DNA of 64,000 nucleotides from Rubripirellula reticaptiva (GTDB taxonomy: Bacteria > Planctomycetota > Planctomycetia > Pirellulales > Pirellulaceae). Position numbers and translations under genes: made by a program. This document shows positions 7,069 through 14,328 of the stretch, in pieces. Location of the stretch: contig NZ_SJPX01000005.1 in NCBI RefSeq assembly GCF_007860175.1, positions 62,001-126,000 on the forward strand, given 5' to 3'. Every line of letters starts with the position of its first letter. Position 1 is the stretch's first letter. The notes beneath the pieces were generated by a model, which saw nothing but the letters and a program-made list of their open reading frames with translations, did no database searches and had not been told where the DNA came from.

Positions 7069-9243
7069 GTGAATCGTTTCTTGATCGGCTTTGCCGCGTT
7101 TCTGCTGCTGACTGGCCTGACCGACGCCAAACAGCCCAATATTCTGTTCGTATTTTCGGATGATCATGCGTTACAGTCCATTGGCGCCTACGGGTCGACG
7201 ATCAATCAGACACCGAACCTAGACCGGATCGCCAAAGAAGGCGCCGTGTTTCGCAACTCGTTTTGCGCCAATTCGATCTGCGGGCCGTCGCGGGCTTGCA
7301 TCCTGACAGGTAAGCACTCGCACATCAACGGATTTCTACACAACGGAAACCGGTTCGACGGTTCGCAGATGACGTTTCCGAAATTGATGCAAGAGGTTGG
7401 TTACCAAACCGCGATCATCGGCAAATGGCATCTCAGCAGCGATCCAGTTGGCTTCGATCACTGGGAAGTTTTGCCTGGCCAAGGCAACTACTACAATCCG
7501 GACCTGCTGCAGATGGACGGCAGTCGCAAACGATTCGACGGCTACTGCACCGACATCATCACCGAGCACACATTGAAGTGGCTCAAGGAAGATCGCGACC
7601 CCGACAAGCCCTTCATCATGATGTGCCAACACAAGGCACCGCACCGCAACTGGTCACCGCCACCACGCTACTACTCGCTTTACGACGACACCACGATTCC
7701 CGAACCGGACACTCTATTCGACGATTACAGTGGGCGCAGCGACTTGCTGAAAGAGAACGAAATGACGATCGCCAATCACATGCATTGGGGACACGACATG
7801 AAGTTTCACGGTGAAAACCAGTTTCCCGACCACTTTGCCGATCTGCACAAGAACGCTGAATACGGTCGCATGACAGCGGACCAGAAAGCCGCTTGGGACG
7901 CGGCGTACGAGCCCAAGAACCAAGCCTTCATTGCCAAAATGAAAGCCGGCGGATTCACCGATCGCGAAGTCACTCAGTGGAAGTACCAGCGATACATCAA
8001 GGACTATCTGCGATGCATTCAAGCCGTTGACGATTCGATGGGCAGCCTGCTAGCGTACTTGGACGAATCTGGAATAGCCGACGATACGATCGTGATCTAC
8101 AGCAGCGACCAAGGATTCTACCTAGGTGAACATGGCTGGTACGACAAACGATGGATGTTCGAGGAATCACTACGAATGCCATTTTTGGTTCGTTGGCCTG
8201 GCGTGATCAACCCCGGCGTCGACTCGACCGCAATGATCCAAAACATTGACTATGCGCCGACGTTCTTGGAAATCGCCGGAGCCGAAGTGCCGGCCGAAAT
8301 TCAGGGCCGCAGCATGGTCGAAATGATGAAGAACCAAGGCAAACCGTCGGCCAGTTGGCGAGACGCCATCTACTATGCGTATTACGAAAACGCAGCCTCC
8401 CACAATGTGCCGATTCACGACGGAGTTCGCACGGATCGGTACAAGCTGATGTTCTTCCCGCGGACTCGACAGTGGAATTTGTTCGACTTGGAAACTGATC
8501 CGCTGGAAATGGCGAGCGTTCACGACAGCGAAGCTTATGCGGATGTCTTGGCAGGAATGCAAAAACGGTATCGCGATCTTCGCCAGTTCTATGACGTAAA
8601 CACTGCCATCATCCCGGCCACTCGCAACGAAGAGAAACGGTGGGCCGAGCGTCATCAGGAAATGAACCGTCAAGCCAAGCAGGGCGATGTCGATTTGGCC
8701 TTCATCGGGGACTCGATCACTCAGGGCTGGGAAGGCGCAGGCAAGGAAGTCTGGGAGAAATATTACGGCAATCGAAAAACGATTAATTTAGGCATCGGTG
8801 GCGACCGGACCGAGCATGTCATATGGCGACTAACGCACGGCAACCTAAGCAAAATCAAACCCCAAGTTGCCGTGCTGATGATTGGCACGAACAACACAGG
8901 ACACTTGGACCAAGACCCTGCACAAGTTGCCGCAGGCGTTCAAGAGATTCTGAACATCCTGGCTGAAAGGTTGCCGGATACGAAGGTCGTGTTGCAAGGG
9001 ATCTTCCCTCGCGGCAATGGCCCACTGGACCTGAAGCGGCTCAACAACATTGCGATCAACGAAATGATCCGCAAGATGGCCGACGGTGATCGAGTGCAGT
9101 TCCTAGAAATTGGCGATCAGTTTGTCGAGTCCGATGGGACGATCGATCCAAAGATCATGCCAGACAAACTGCACCTGTCGCCCGAAGGTTATGAGCGATG
9201 GGCAAAAGCACTTGAGCCAACGTTGATTGAACTGGGCCTTTAA
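7069..9243 (+). CDS. Secreted sulfatase fused to an SGNH/GDSL hydrolase
   Basis: A 724-residue, two-enzyme protein. The start is GTG at 7069, chosen because it begins a clean signal peptide (NRFLIGFAAFLLLTGLTDA); the TTG 24 bp upstream would put extra residues before it. Residues 22-35 (PNILFVFSDDHA) and CGPSRACILTGKH (Cys71, the residue converted to formylglycine in Cys-type sulfatases) define a type I sulfatase, which extends to about residue 515 and includes the metal-binding YSSDQGFYLGEHGWYDK region. From about residue 540 an SGNH hydrolase follows: FIGDSITQ (block I, nucleophile Ser), GGDRTEHV (Gly block), IGTNN (Asn, about 605-609), and DKLHLSPEGY (Asp699, His702). Likely desulfates and deacylates a polysaccharide outside the cytoplasm; the substrate is not shown. 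Confidence 0.9.
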   Translation: MNRFLIGFAAFLLLTGLTDAKQPNILFVFSDDHALQSIGAYGSTINQTPNLDRIAKEGAVFRNSFCANSICGPSRACILTGKHSHINGFLHNGNRFDGSQMTFPKLMQEVGYQTAIIGKWHLSSDPVGFDHWEVLPGQGNYYNPDLLQMDGSRKRFDGYCTDIITEHTLKWLKEDRDPDKPFIMMCQHKAPHRNWSPPPRYYSLYDDTTIPEPDTLFDDYSGRSDLLKENEMTIANHMHWGHDMKFHGENQFPDHFADLHKNAEYGRMTADQKAAWDAAYEPKNQAFIAKMKAGGFTDREVTQWKYQRYIKDYLRCIQAVDDSMGSLLAYLDESGIADDTIVIYSSDQGFYLGEHGWYDKRWMFEESLRMPFLVRWPGVINPGVDSTAMIQNIDYAPTFLEIAGAEVPAEIQGRSMVEMMKNQGKPSASWRDAIYYAYYENAASHNVPIHDGVRTDRYKLMFFPRTRQWNLFDLETDPLEMASVHDSEAYADVLAGMQKRYRDLRQFYDVNTAIIPATRNEEKRWAERHQEMNRQAKQGDVDLAFIGDSITQGWEGAGKEVWEKYYGNRKTINLGIGGDRTEHVIWRLTHGNLSKIKPQVAVLMIGTNNTGHLDQDPAQVAAGVQEILNILAERLPDTKVVLQGIFPRGNGPLDLKRLNNIAINEMIRKMADGDRVQFLEIGDQFVESDGTIDPKIMPDKLHLSPEGYERWAKALEPTLIELGL

Positions 9244-9258
9244 CGAACAACCCCAGAT

Positions 9259-9353
9259 GCCCCTGCGACTCTGTCGCAGGGTGTAGGGTGTAGGGTTTGG
9301 TTCCTGTCAGCTGATTTGCAGCTGACGTCCCGCGATCGGAGTCGCGGGCCCAC
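9259..9353. repeat. Palindromic REP-like element, solo copy
   Basis: Three hairpins in a row: ccctgcgactctgtcgcaggg, then tcagctgatttgcagctga, then cccgcgatcggagtcgcggg. The layout and the outer arms match the two elements that flank the RAYT relic (12277-12362 and 12873-12953); the middle loop differs. It lies between the convergent sulfatase and rimI genes, where it may also act as a transcription end. Confidence 0.75.
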
Positions 9354-9890: not shown

Positions 9891-10330
9891 CCTGGGACTC
9901 CTTTCCAGCGAAACAACCTCGTCTCAGAAAACTAAATCCGTCTTCCGAGCCACTCCCGAGCCATCATGGCTGAGCGAATGGGAGATTAGCAGATGACCAA
10001 AATGGGACCAAGGTTAAAAAGCAAACTTGTTGGAAACGGAAGCATAAACCCGGGAACCCGTGAAACGAATGTGAAACGCGAGCAGGTTCGTCCTGCGGGA
10101 TTGGCGCCGCTGACGCTGTTGATTGCCTACTGGATGTGCTGACGACATGGGAATGACGACATGGGAATGGGGTGAGCCGAGGACTGAAACGATCCAAGGC
10201 GGATGCAGGCTGACCCGGCCGCAGACCCGGCCGCAGACTCGGCCGCAGACTCGGCCGCAGACCCGGCCGAAGACTCGGCCACTTGCGAGTCACGACTCAT
10301 GCGATCAATCACGACCGAGAAATCGGCGCG
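9891..10330. other. Intergenic region between rimI and the parB terminator
   Basis: About 440 bp without a gene. It should contain the rimI promoter. The only structure is the 12-bp tandem repeat at 10212-10281. Open frames over it (Arg-Pro or Ala-Ser repeats) are translations of that repeat and are not genes. Confidence 0.5.
10212..10281. repeat. 12-bp tandem repeat, about six units
   Basis: Units of gac(c/t)cggccg(c/a)a run head to tail almost six times, with C/T alternation at the fourth base. The array is GC-rich and lies 50 bp beyond the parB terminator. Copy number is likely to vary between strains. Confidence 0.85.
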
Positions 10331-10394: not shown

Positions 10395-11366
10395 CTAGCC
10401 AGCAATTCTTAGATTTGGTTTAGCGGCGACACAGAGGATGTCCTTCAATCGCTCGAACTCTTCAGCATCGGTGAAGTGGATCGTGATTTTGCCGCGGCTG
10501 CGAGCCGACGACTTGATCTCGATTTTGGTGCCAAAGATCATTCGCATCTCTTGCTGCATCGCTTCGATTTGCGGCGACACAGGACGACGTTTTTGACGCG
10601 ACGCGTTGACGATCACTTTGCCCGTATCTTCGTCTTCTTCGTTCTTCAGCAGCTCGGCCACATGAGTCTCGGTCGCCCGGACACTCCAGCGCTCGTCCAT
10701 GATTTTGCGAGCGATGTTGACTTGGACTTCTTCGTCGCCGATCGGCAGCAACGCCCGTGCGTGTCCCGCACTGACTTCGCCAGCGGTTAGCCAGTCGAGG
10801 ATTTGCTGGGGCAACTCGAGCAGTCGCATCAGGTTTGCGATCGTGCTGCGATCAATGCTCAAGCGGCGAGCCAGGTCATCCTGCTTGCACTTGTGCTCGG
10901 TGATGTAGCGTTTGAACGACATCGCCTTTTCGATCGGGTTCAAGTCCTTGCGTTGCAAGTTCTCGATGATCGCCAGCTCCGCGACCAATCGATCGTCGGC
11001 CTCGCGAACTTCCGCACGGATCTTGGTTAGACCTGCGTGGATGGTTGCTCGCAGGCGACGTTCGCCACTGATGAGTTGATACTTGCCGTCAACAATGCGA
11101 ACCAGGATTGGTTGCAGTTGTTGGTGGCTCTTGATGCTTTCAGCTAGCGAAGCGATTTCGTCGACGTTGAATTCGCGGCGAGGTTGGAACGGATTGTTCT
11201 CGACCTCGCTGACGTTCAGTTCGATCGACTCGATGCCGTGCGATGCACTAGCGTCACCGTCGACGTGGTCCGAACCGCGTGGTGCGTCGTCGTCCATCGA
11301 ATCACCAAGAAGAGCGGCAAGTCCTTTGCCAAGTCTTCGGTCTTTATTGGTCGTTGCACTAGTCAC
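10395..11366 (-). CDS. parB: Chromosome partitioning protein ParB
   Basis: ParB binds parS sites, uses CTP to clamp and spread along DNA, and works with ParA to segregate the origin region. The protein has 323 residues from GTG 11366. Visible: the N-terminal ParA-interaction motif LGKGLAALLG (12-21), the ParB/Srx domain with NPFQPRREF (58-66) and the CTP-binding GERRLRA (101-107), a helix-turn-helix (about 160-187), and a C-terminal dimerisation region. The GTG has a GGAGG ribosome site 8 bases upstream and overlaps the parA stop by 8 bases (GTGACTAG), so the two genes are probably translationally coupled. The longer open frame beginning at 11534 lies inside parA and is not used. Confidence 0.93.
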   Translation of the reverse strand: MTSATTNKDRRLGKGLAALLGDSMDDDAPRGSDHVDGDASASHGIESIELNVSEVENNPFQPRREFNVDEIASLAESIKSHQQLQPILVRIVDGKYQLISGERRLRATIHAGLTKIRAEVREADDRLVAELAIIENLQRKDLNPIEKAMSFKRYITEHKCKQDDLARRLSIDRSTIANLMRLLELPQQILDWLTAGEVSAGHARALLPIGDEEVQVNIARKIMDERWSVRATETHVAELLKNEEDEDTGKVIVNASRQKRRPVSPQIEAMQQEMRMIFGTKIEIKSSARSRGKITIHFTDAEEFERLKDILCVAAKPNLRIAG

Positions 11367-12105
11367 GTTGGAGCACCTCCATGCACAGCTGAGTATAGGC
11401 GAACGCGCCACGCGATCGCGGGGCGTATTGAAACACGGTTTTGCCATGGCTGGGGGCTTCGCAAAGCGAAACGTCCCTGGGCACGACATTATCAAAAACG
11501 ATGTCTCCGAAGAAATCCCGAACTTCTTCATCAACTTCGTGAGTGAGTTCTAAATGCGGATCGTACATTGTCAGTAGGATGCCGCCGAAGGTCAGTCGTC
11601 CGTCAGTCGCGACGATGACCTTTTTGATGGTTTGAATTAATTGTGTCAGGCCTTCCATGGCGAAGTACTCGCACTGGATCGGCATCAGAACTTCGGTCGA
11701 CGCGGTTAGTGCTGTCTGTGTCAACGCACCAACACTGGGCGGACAGTCAATCAGCACGAAGTCGTAGTCTTCGATGACAGCGTCGAAGTGGCGGCGGACC
11801 AGGCGGGTGTGGGCACTGTCGCTATGAGCCAGCTTGTCGACGTCGTGGAAGGTTCGGCTGCCAGGCACGACCGACAGGTTGTCTTGGCGAGAATCGACGA
11901 TGTGGCCGACCAGATCATCTTCGCTGACAAGGGCGTGCCCGTCGGTGGGTGAGATGCCTAGGGACGTAGTCGCATTGCACTGGGGGTCCATGTCGACCAA
12001 CAGCGTCCGCTGGCCGGCTAGAGCCAGCGCGGCAGAAAGATTGACGGCAGTGGTTGTTTTGCCCACGCCTCCTTTCTGATTGACCACGCAAAGTATCCTT
12101 CCCAC
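11359..12105 (-). CDS. parA: Chromosome partitioning ATPase ParA (Soj-type)
   Basis: A deviant Walker ATPase that binds DNA with ATP and is released by ParB, driving origin segregation. Residues 11-18 (KGGVGKTT) form the deviant Walker A motif; VDMDPQ (37-42) is the A' motif; VLIDCPPSVG is Walker B. From GTG 12105 it has 248 residues, the usual Soj length. The frame is open up to ATG 12195, adding 30 residues without family similarity, but that ATG lies inside a parS-like site (12186-12201), so I prefer GTG. TTG at 12141 is a third choice. First gene of a parA-parB operon. Confidence 0.92.
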   Translation of the reverse strand: MGRILCVVNQKGGVGKTTTAVNLSAALALAGQRTLLVDMDPQCNATTSLGISPTDGHALVSEDDLVGHIVDSRQDNLSVVPGSRTFHDVDKLAHSDSAHTRLVRRHFDAVIEDYDFVLIDCPPSVGALTQTALTASTEVLMPIQCEYFAMEGLTQLIQTIKKVIVATDGRLTFGGILLTMYDPHLELTHEVDEEVRDFFGDIVFDNVVPRDVSLCEAPSHGKTVFQYAPRSRGAFAYTQLCMEVLQRD

Positions 12106-12185
12106 CGGGGATGTTCTCGTCTTTGAGAATCTGACATTCAACGAAACCGAATCTGGCTCGCTCGATGGGCGGAAAGTAGGGCATA

Positions 12186-12201
12186 TGTTCCGCATGAAAC
12201 A
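12186..12201. promoter_or_regulatory. parS-like site 1
   Basis: The sequence tgttccgcatgaaaca matches the bacterial parS consensus TGTTTCACGTGAAACA at 13 of 16 positions. It is upstream of the likely parA start, where parS sites often lie. Confidence 0.6.
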
Positions 12202-12222: not shown

Positions 12223-12276
12223 ACTCTTGACGTGGGAGGTAGATTCTGTGGTCGGCGTTTGGCGGTGAACCGGCAT

Positions 12277-12362
12277 GGCCCTGCGACTCCGTTCGCAGGG
12301 TATAGGCTGCACTCATATACTGCTTTGCAGTTTCTATCCCGCGAACGGAGTCGCGAGTCCAC
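12277..12362. repeat. Palindromic REP-like element, left flank of RAYT relic
   Basis: Same three-hairpin layout as the copy at 12873-12953: ccctgcgactccgttcgcaggg, then ctgctttgcag, then cccgcgaacggagtcgcgag. Homology with the right copy continues outward through gtccactgg..ttgcccgatt to about 12380, next to the stop codon of the relic. Confidence 0.8.
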
Positions 12363-12383
12363 TGGGGCTTGCCCGATTTTGAT

Positions 12384-12856
12384 TTAGGCTAGATCAGGGA
12401 GGTAGAGGCGGTCCTGGCCTTGATACAGGTCAGCCTTTTCGGGGTTGCTTGCGATGTAGCGGCGGAACCTTTGGAAGTGGGCGTCATCTCGCGCCAGATG
12501 GTCGAGGCTCTCTGACTGAAAGACGTGCCCTGTCCGGCTAAGCGACTGGTTGATCCGGAGTGCTTGGTAATGCTTCCATAAGAAGCACTGTTCGAGTTGT
12601 ATTCGCTGGCGATCTTGGGCCGCAGACTGCGAAGCTGGTCGCCCCAGTAAGGCTGACTCGGACCAATCCCACGAGCGAGGAGTCAGTGGTACCGCTGGGC
12701 CATGATTCGATTGCAGGCCGCCAGCGGATTCGAATCGGACAGCCGGTCGGTGATGAAGTCCGTCGCACCCGGTTGCTGCCAATGCGGAAGGTCGCCAAAG
12801 GTCACCTGGAATTCGGCGTCGGGATCAAAGAACTGGAAGTCCGAAATCCGCAACAT
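12384..12856 (-). pseudogene. Relic of a REP-associated tyrosine transposase (RAYT)
   Basis: RAYTs are single-copy HUH-type transposases of the IS200/Y1 group that mobilise REP palindromes. From ATG 12856 the first frame gives GDLPHWQQPGATDFITDRL, the RAYT N-terminal signature, then stops at TGA 12683. In another frame the C-terminal signature appears: TGHVFQSESLDHLARDDAHF and RYIASNPEKADL (about 12400-12490). The central part with the catalytic HxH (usually MPNHVH) is absent, so this copy has an internal deletion plus frame damage and cannot act. It is bracketed by two palindromic elements (12277-12362, 12873-12953), the usual RAYT arrangement. Confidence 0.85.
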
Positions 12857-12872
12857 TTCCGGTCACCCCTGT

Positions 12873-12953
12873 GGCCCTGCGACTCCGCTCGCAGGGTGTA
12901 CGAGTTTGCAAACTGCTTTGCAGCTTACATCCCGCGAGCGGAATCGCGGGTCC
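12873..12953. repeat. Palindromic REP-like element, right flank of RAYT relic
   Basis: Three hairpins: ccctgcgactccgctcgcaggg (8-bp stem), ctgctttgcag (4-bp stem), cccgcgagcggaatcgcggg (7-bp stem). About 80% identical by eye to the left copy. It lies between the start of the RAYT relic and the end of the DUF1015 gene. Confidence 0.8.
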
Positions 12954-12975
12954 AACTGGTTTGCCCGATTACCCG

Positions 12976-14328
12976 TTAGGATAGTGGGTTGAAGGTCAGG
13001 CCGCTTAGCAGCTTGGGATAGAAGTAGGTGCTCTTGGCGGGCATTCGCTCTTTGTGCAGGCTGATCCTTTCGACGTGCTCGAGCTGAGCCGGCATCACCA
13101 GAGCCGCCAGCGTGTACGGCTCGTCCGAATCGCTTTCGGCCTGACTGCCCTGCCCTTCGATCCCGTCAACCACTTCGGTGACTTCGTGAACGTAGGTTGG
13201 TTTGGGGTGGCCTTTGGCGGACAGCAGATCATCGATGACCAAGCGGTGCAGCAAACTGACACCCAGCCCACGCCAATCGGCACTTTGATCGGCGGCGATC
13301 TGGGCCATCTTGCCAGCCGATTTATCGGTCGCCCGGCACAGCAACCAGGTCTCGTCGCCGGTGGCGTACAAGCCGATCAGCCCCTGCTCGGCCGCCTGCT
13401 GCATCATGCCCCAGACTTCGGCCGCGGCGCGAGCGCCACCGGCCACCACATCGCAGTCAAAGTACTCGCCCAATGCCGTCGTGATTTCAGCTGACGAGAA
13501 TGACCGCGTCCCTCGCAGTAGCCGGTGAGTAGGCAGCACGACCATCCCCGGGTCGCTCATCCCGACCAGCATCGTCATCACGAAATTTGCGGGATGGTCG
13601 ACCGGAAGCGAACCACCCTGCTCTGCCGAATTCAGCTCGGCCGCGACTTGGTTTTTGTAGTTGCAACTGGTCTCGTAGCGATGATGCCCGTCGGCAACGA
13701 ACATCGGCCGGTCGTCCATCAGAGCATTGACCTTGGCGATCACGGTCTCGTCCGTCACGGGCCATAGCGTGTGACGAACGCCCAGGTGATCGGTCGCTTC
13801 AATCGGTTCGGTACCGACCGTGGCCGCGTCCAGCAGGTCGATGACTTCGTTGGTCGGGTCGGGATAGAGTCCGAAGATCTGGCTGTTGTTTTGCTTCGTC
13901 GCCGTCGTCAGCTTCAGCCGATCAGCCTTGGCACTGGCGTGCGTTTCTTCGTGAGGATAGATGTTGCCTTCGCCAAACGGAGTCGTACGGACGCGGCCCT
14001 GAAATCCGCGGCGAGTGACGGTGGTGCCGTCGACTTCGAAGGTTTGGTGGTAGACGTAGTAGGCGGGCTTGGCATCGCGAACCAGGACTCCCTCGCTCTG
14101 CCACTGCTGGACGAACTTTGCCGCCCGCGCGTACTTCTCCTCGCCAGTCGAGTCACCGGGTTCGGTTCGGTTCAGGATGATGCGGATGACGTTGGCCGCG
14201 TGCCGCTTGTAGAGCTCGTCTTGAAGCTTTGGATCGATGACGTCATAGGGCGGCGCGACGACATCCGAGAGCGAACCGACATGCTGAAGATTGTAGCGCA
14301 GGGCGGCGAAAGGGCGAGTTTGAGGCAT
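12976..14328 (-). CDS. DUF1015 family protein
   Basis: A 450-residue cytoplasmic protein without signal or membrane segments. The family signature is at the N-terminus (FAALRYN, then VVAPPYDVI at about residues 24-32), followed by EEKYARAAKFVQQW, EETHASAKADRL and FVADGHHRYETS (about 210-221), all typical of full-length DUF1015 proteins (usual length 400-450). The biochemical role is not settled for this bacterial family; the ADGHHRYE block suggests a catalytic or metal site. It is downstream of ahcY, but the ahcY terminator lies between them, so it is probably transcribed separately. Confidence 0.85.
   Translation of the reverse strand: MPQTRPFAALRYNLQHVGSLSDVVAPPYDVIDPKLQDELYKRHAANVIRIILNRTEPGDSTGEEKYARAAKFVQQWQSEGVLVRDAKPAYYVYHQTFEVDGTTVTRRGFQGRVRTTPFGEGNIYPHEETHASAKADRLKLTTATKQNNSQIFGLYPDPTNEVIDLLDAATVGTEPIEATDHLGVRHTLWPVTDETVIAKVNALMDDRPMFVADGHHRYETSCNYKNQVAAELNSAEQGGSLPVDHPANFVMTMLVGMSDPGMVVLPTHRLLRGTRSFSSAEITTALGEYFDCDVVAGGARAAAEVWGMMQQAAEQGLIGLYATGDETWLLCRATDKSAGKMAQIAADQSADWRGLGVSLLHRLVIDDLLSAKGHPKPTYVHEVTEVVDGIEGQGSQAESDSDEPYTLAALVMPAQLEHVERISLHKERMPAKSTYFYPKLLSGLTFNPLS

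Follow-up and report, generated by a model that had tools for sequence, protein, structure and literature searches.

A decayed RAYT gene flanked by REPINs in Rubripirellula reticaptiva

Results

A broken RAYT gene between two genes of the window

We analyzed a 64,000-nucleotide stretch of the genome of Rubripirellula reticaptiva ("the window"; positions without a contig name refer to it). The genome as a whole (G000) has 7.85 Mb in 13 contigs. On the minus strand of the window, from 12856 down to 12387, the ORF list and tblastn identified the remnant of a RAYT gene in two out-of-frame pieces. As the tblastn query for the cognate RAYT, we used the intact 224-amino-acid RAYT of the congener G012 (L015:1039-1713). 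The N-terminal piece (12611-12856, minus strand) corresponds to amino acids 1-82 of this protein, at 52% identity, and includes one TGA; the C-terminal piece (12387-12599, minus strand), in another frame, corresponds to amino acids 152-222, at 61% identity. The original prediction was that the N- and C-terminal RAYT signatures lie in different frames and that the catalytic HxH region is missing, and both parts were borne out: GDLPHWQQPGATDFIT is in the ORF at 12683-12856 and RYIASNPEKADL is in the ORF at 12384-12782 (both on the minus strand, in different frames), and tblastn found no match in the relic to amino acids 83-151 of the G012 protein, which include NHVH. The motif with the catalytic tyrosine (Y-I-x-x-N-P) is still present, as YIASNP. 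Since the HUH motif is gone (it is NHVH in G012 and NDAH in another congener, G001), the window gene is a relic and not a working RAYT.

Similarity searches also agree with the prediction that the relic is related to RAYTs, both with the G012 RAYT and with the NCBIfam model NF047646 (REP-associated tyrosine transposase). The relic's C-terminal piece matches this model with E = 1.4e-5, below the model's curated cut-off of 80 bits, and the intact G012 RAYT is likewise below the cut-off, with E = 9.2e-17; the N-terminal piece alone did not match. The G012 RAYT, which has NHVH, passes the cut-off for Pfam's Y1_Tnp (PF01797; 29.3 bits vs. 23), while a Pfam search of the relic's ORFs in the window gave no match. 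We also looked for a relative in the PDB by sequence, but the sole hit was to a cellulase (E = 0.92), which we took to be due to chance.

The relic is the only one in the genome, and it lies between two other minus-strand genes, which we take, from their sequences, to be ParA-like (11359-12195) and DUF1015-like (12976-14328). (The ahcY-like gene discussed below was named in the same way.)

Three asymmetric REPINs

The relic is bracketed by two palindromic elements, E2 on its 3' side (12275-12362) and E3 on its 5' side (12871-12956). E2 begins 80 bp upstream of the longest start of the ParA-like gene. A third element, E1 (9257-9353), is 3 kb away between convergent ORFs that end at 9243 (plus strand) and 9372 (minus strand), as predicted. 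We list all three as minus-strand features. Each is an asymmetric REPIN, with two inverted REPs whose GTGG-type feet point outward and a hairpin in the middle, and in each of them, as in other copies, the two REPs can form one hairpin. The first REP has a 7-bp stem (CCCGCGA/TCGCGGG) and a 6-nt loop, next to a GTGG-type foot; the central hairpin is ACTGC-AAA-GCAGT; and the stem of the second, inverted REP is CCCTGCGA/TCGCAGGG, and its foot, too, lies on the outside. The REP consensus is a GTGG foot, which is a tag of the GTRG type, then one unpaired base, the 7-bp stem, and the 6-nt loop.

In E1, the left hairpin is at 9260-9281, with a loop that is shorter than 6 nt, and the right REP (GTGGGCCCGCGACTCCGATCGCGGGA) is at 9328-9353 (minus strand). 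E2 has its left REP at 12275-12300 (plus strand, foot ATGG) and its right REP at 12337-12362 (minus strand). In E3, these are at 12871-12896 (plus strand) and 12930-12956 (minus strand), and the foot of the right REP is G-TTGG, with one extra base. The foot is exactly GTGG in three of the six arms (E1 right, E2 right, and E3 left) and is worn in the other three (ATGC, ATGG, and TTGG). As single-stranded DNA, all three elements fold far more stably than their shuffled sequences (z = -6.2 for E1, -7.7 for E2, and -6.5 for E3; for each, 0 of 200 shuffles were as stable), so the predicted palindromes are real. (Two single-arm copies from elsewhere fold with z = -2.6 and -4.1.) The elements had been located correctly, but they are slightly wider than first proposed, with worn feet at their ends.

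Few and diverged copies in this genome

Whether the elements are dispersed across the genome, and only in intergenic spaces, had been posed as a check; they are dispersed and, by crude gene calls, mostly intergenic. We searched with a 26-nt REP pattern, allowing up to 3 mismatches, and used the same pattern read backwards as the control. There were 11 matches in R. reticaptiva and none for the control. We also built a covariance model, using nine right arms from this genome and one from G001. It gave 15 hits with E up to 0.022, at 11 sites; nine of these hits are members of the model. (One gene-internal match, L185, was weak, with 6 mismatches, and was left out of the count of sites.) Three of the 11 sites are in the window. 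According to a crude gene caller based on codon usage, 10 of the 11 sites are intergenic; outside the window, seven of eight lie between called genes, and the other (C2:998604) reaches about 28 bp into one.

The copies are not much alike. For the five two-armed copies that our script compared (it missed E1), the median identity to the nearest neighbor was 0.77, which is also the identity of the best pair. Judging by these sequences, the small number of diverged copies points to a fossil family in R. reticaptiva.

The same sites in a congener

G001 has a RAYT relic at the corresponding place, between its ParA-like and DUF1015-like genes. There, roughly amino acids 21-110 are missing, NDAH replaces NHVH, there is a TAA, and the N-terminus is in another frame. 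At the E1 site, G001 has the left half only; at the E2 site, it has a remnant; and at the E3 site, it has the right half. Because the relic and the elements are at the same places in G001 but the lesions in the RAYT are different, the relic and E1-E3 appear to have been inherited vertically, and the RAYTs of the two genomes appear to have decayed independently. The proposed RAYT-REP arrangement in decay was thus upheld: the RAYT is broken, there are REPINs on both sides of it, and its lesions are not those of the G001 copy.

A fourth REPIN of R. reticaptiva (C1:162428) is also present in G001, as the right arm and the central hairpin. (This site is empty in G012 and has other sequence in G003.) So, of the 11 sites, all four that were compared are at least partly occupied in G001, which implies that these sites are old.

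Conversely, we compared REPs from positions 383-475k of G001's C1 with the window. This stretch has ten matches to the REP when up to 5 mismatches are allowed. Five places were compared, and another aligned too poorly to be judged; the remaining matches, at 390.8k (two), 396.9k, and 440.7k, are beyond the aligned parts. The window lacks the REPINs at 413.5k and 428.9k in the corresponding positions, so they were either gained in G001 or lost in R. reticaptiva. When we compared the flanks of ten R. reticaptiva loci to those of 40 REP loci from G001, we found no 140-bp flank match, but this set of 40 lacked the counterparts of E1-E3 and the shared C5:637545, so the null result is no evidence for unshared sites.

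A large population in G001

The REP pattern has 112 matches in G001, vs. 11 in R. reticaptiva, and the covariance model has at least 130 hits. (Covariance-model counts are lower bounds, as 150 candidates were scored per genome.) The pattern is matched exactly by 34 of the 112 REPs and by 1 of the 11, which we do not take as a difference in decay.

Just outside the GTGG foot, G001 has a conserved box, CGGGCAACCC. We looked at 61 right-type REPs (at most 2 mismatches) in 43 stretches, and each of the ten columns of the box was kept in 41-59 of them (one REP was counted twice, as two stretches overlap, and members of arrays are not independent). The ACCC part of the box is within the insert at 428.9k and is lacking in the window, and this indicates that the box belongs to the unit. 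Boxes that are partly similar to it are found at several copies in R. reticaptiva, and none was found at the REP copies around the G012 RAYT.

At C1:891335-891851, C1:1141335-1141787, C1:1309906-1310302, and C3:32539-32868, G001 also has 3-5 REPIN units in tandem, spaced at 117-122 bp. Among its two-armed copies (n = 40), the median identity to the nearest copy at another locus is 0.90, and the best is 0.945. The comparison with the 0.77 in R. reticaptiva only suggests that the copies there are older, and a larger set favors near neighbors.

We aligned 52 distinct right arms from G001 (one of 53 was dropped for its odd spacing). Paired positions could pair in 93.1% of cells, vs. 30-38% if the sides were slid against each other. 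There were 54 cells with changes on both sides of a pair, vs. 19.6 in shuffled alignments (0 of 500 shuffles were as high), and all of these were in the 9-bp central hairpin, none in the REP stem itself. The number of pairs with such changes was ordinary (5 vs. 4.3 in shuffles; 205 of 500 were as high), and in the alignment of ten arms, mostly from R. reticaptiva, covariation was not above that of shuffles. These shuffles ignore relatedness.

Relatives beyond this pair

In G012, the intact RAYT is between the ahcY-like gene and the DUF1015-like gene, that is, on the other side of the DUF1015-like gene and displaced by one gene from where the relic lies. It has REPs on both sides (8 copies). 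G001 carries a REPIN at this ahcY-like/DUF1015-like junction. It is possible that the RAYT unit moved by recombination between REPs, as one might infer from these positions.

G012 has 25 matches to the REP pattern and G003 has 2; the backwards control had none in either of these or in G001. The covariance model had hits with E up to 0.1 in 5 of 40 genomes, counting R. reticaptiva, and these included 3 of 21 congeners. One of the five, from another family, had a single hit (E = 0.085).

We also scanned 84,980 species genomes for the exact pattern (the scan may leave out records of the window's own genome or very near ones). One further genome had it, the MAG Planctomycetaceae SP200 (G060), on 12 contigs. 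SP200 has 78 REPs (and none for the backwards control), many of them in asymmetric REPINs that are compact, at 54 bp (L134-L145). No RAYT or Y1 transposase was matched in SP200, but an empty search result of this kind shows little, and a MAG may lack the gene.

Is there an intact cognate RAYT?

It had been suggested that an intact RAYT elsewhere in the genome might still move the elements. A search for Y1 transposases had four hits in R. reticaptiva, of which three were free of stops and one contained a stop, and none had this REP within about 1.5 kb. More broadly, among 27 Y1/RAYT loci from eight genomes (with about 1.5 kb of flanking sequence and at most 4 substitutions), the cognate from G012 was the sole one with the REP. 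Besides the relic, tblastn with the G012 RAYT matched only two distant genes in R. reticaptiva, at 32% and 27% identity and in the C-terminal part. So neither the Y1 search nor tblastn found an intact cognate RAYT in this genome, and continued movement of the REPINs is not supported. Copy number had been proposed as the check on mobility; it did turn up further copies, at 11 sites, but these are few and diverged, and the full-length cognate RAYT was not among the results.

We also scanned about 0.8 kb around 11 other loci from R. reticaptiva and G001 for hairpins with a GTRG tag and found no such REP. Two other hairpins did come up: a GTAG hairpin, unlike this REP, next to a G001 Y1 gene (L113), and a weak GTGG hairpin at L010. 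The scan recovered both positive controls, one of them the relic region of G001, with one REP. The other Y1 transposases were rejected as movers of the REPINs because they are without matching flanking repeats.

Discussion

A probable REPtron in decay

We think that an ancestral RAYT and its REPINs form a REPtron that is dead in R. reticaptiva and in decay, with 11 sites that are probably immobile and eroding. We put the probability of this reading at roughly 0.88. It builds on the relic, its missing HUH motif, the sites shared with G001, the different lesions, and the copy numbers. The ancestor of R. reticaptiva and G001 would have had a RAYT, a Y1/HUH single-strand DNA transposase, flanked by REPINs. 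This RAYT presumably recognized REP hairpins that carry a GTGG foot, in single-stranded form (here we extrapolate from the known family), and would have copied REPINs to other sites, mostly intergenic. (That REPINs are duplicated by their RAYT is presumed.) In the lineage of R. reticaptiva, the RAYT lost the HUH region and its frame, which would leave the remaining REPIN/REP sites without movement. In G001, the RAYT was lost by different lesions, and this would have come after or during the build-up of a larger REPIN population. G001 has tenfold more REPs despite its dead cognate RAYT, so the state of the RAYT alone cannot explain copy number. As a counterpoint to decay, G012 has an intact RAYT and 25 REPs, and SP200, which is a MAG, has 78 with no Y1 transposase detected.

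Could the hairpins be due to chance, next to an unrelated gene fragment? Hairpins rich in GC are frequent in DNA of this kind, but this idea is refuted: the backwards patterns had no matches in five genomes, the folds have z of -6 to -8, the covariance model had 15 hits (nine being its own members), and a like arrangement surrounds the intact RAYT of G012. It is also very improbable that the REPINs are still mobile in R. reticaptiva, moved in trans by another of its Y1 transposases. Three of the four Y1 hits do lack stops, and the REPIN population of G001 is still large even though the searches of that genome turned up no intact cognate gene. However, none of the four is flanked by this REP or by a similar GTRG hairpin, the copies are unlike each other even in the best two-armed pair, and the four compared sites, being common to G001, are old.

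Another explanation is that the elements are maintained because they serve the host, in mRNA 3' ends, termination, or DNA structure, and that the link to a RAYT is now incidental. The intergenic location of nearly all of the sites (as far as the crude gene caller can tell) and the excess of two-sided changes in the central hairpin of G001 fit this idea. But the excess disappears if pairs are counted instead of cells, the REP stem shows no such changes, and the ten-arm alignment has no excess at all. Covariation would also be expected if the structure served mobilization, and the shuffles do not account for relatedness. Furthermore, the model has hits in few of the congeners, and the one site that was tested, C1:162428, is empty in G012. 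We consider a host function unlikely. Also rather unlikely is the idea that an extended REPIN unit of about 118 bp, with the CGGGCAACCC box, two types of arm, and the covarying hairpin, has outlived its transposase or uses another enzyme. This unit would have been amplified and kept as tandem arrays in G001, with its dead RAYT; its core is also present in the SP200 MAG, where no Y1 transposase was detected.

If the preferred reading, a REPtron in decay, is correct, then what was apparently one ancestral RAYT died differently in two congeners, which have 11 and 112 REPs, while a third congener with an intact RAYT has 25. This is a small natural comparison of the fate of REPINs after RAYT loss, in a thinly covered phylum. 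To us, the most interesting part is the large population in G001 without a detected working cognate RAYT.

Comparison to known systems

REP-RAYT pairs, GTGG feet, and the REPs of R. baltica have already been published, so this is a known type of system. Our literature search, whose scope excluded subscription papers and preprints, recognized no paper on this relic or unit.

Di Nocera 2013 (PMC3733652) places both super-families of tagged REPs in Planctomycetes. For R. baltica, it describes several families of REPs and many tyrosine transposases with flanking repeats; it also describes heterodimers, structured spacers, and a GTGG variant of the tag in O. terrae. As in the REPtrons described there, the locus has an HUH/Y1 gene between tagged palindromes, inverted dimers, structured spacers, heterodimers, and the GTGG variant. 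Unlike those, the gene here is broken, and there is a conserved 10-bp box outside the tag in G001 copies (less kept in some R. reticaptiva copies). The comparison to the R. baltica families is by description, not by repeat sequence.

The model of REPINs is from Bertels and Rainey 2011 (PMC3116915) and PMC8049555. The elements resemble the REPINs of PMC3116915 in having doublets of REPs that form hairpins, singlets as remnants, and clusters, but here each unit has three hairpins, including a central palindrome, and two types of arm. PMC8049555 describes RAYTs as domesticated transposases that are present in single copy and inherited vertically, and it leaves what happens to REPIN populations when the RAYT is lost to an elementary model.

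Quentin 2018 (PMC6006769) describes subclasses of RAYTs with GT[AG]G REPs, including 2.4 and 2.7, whose median lengths are 194 and 213 amino acids. The cognate RAYT resembles these two TnpAREP subclasses in its NHVH, its long REPs with 5' GT[AG]G, and its length, which is near those medians. The G012 RAYT has FQ (not WQ) and YIEKNP, and neither subclass's signature fits exactly. Finally, compared to the TnpAREP of E. coli and its BIMEs of y and z REPs (PMC8266576), the units are alike in being mosaics of differing REP types; they are unlike in the GTGG foot, the bulge-free stem, and, by motif, the group of the RAYT.

Other repeats in this genome

Some other Y1 or RAYT-like genes of R. reticaptiva are near repeats of other types. 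At C1:1730300-1734700 (L189), an IS200-like Y1 gene, which is interrupted by a stop, has direct copies of a different palindromic repeat on its two sides (CAACCCCGTTGGGGTTG and GGGTGCGCTTCGCGACCC, with 0-1 mismatches; at 1828-1887 and 2542-2601 of the locus). At C6:203000-207400 (L192), a Y1 gene with an open frame (L013:1456-2067) lies between copies of CCGGAGGGCTYGCGCCCTKCCGCTA (at 1930-1954 and 2579-2603), and these could be a second repeat-transposase pair of this genome. We looked for both types of repeat in the window and they are absent. Directly upstream of another RAYT-like gene (L012, around 1940-2075, or roughly 451.9-452.0k of C5), there is a tandem repeat of the 15-bp unit ccccttttgtgatga. 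In the window itself, around 10215-10290, a short unit of roughly 12 bp (cggccgcagact, with variants) recurs in tandem between an acetyltransferase-like gene and the end of a ParB-like gene.
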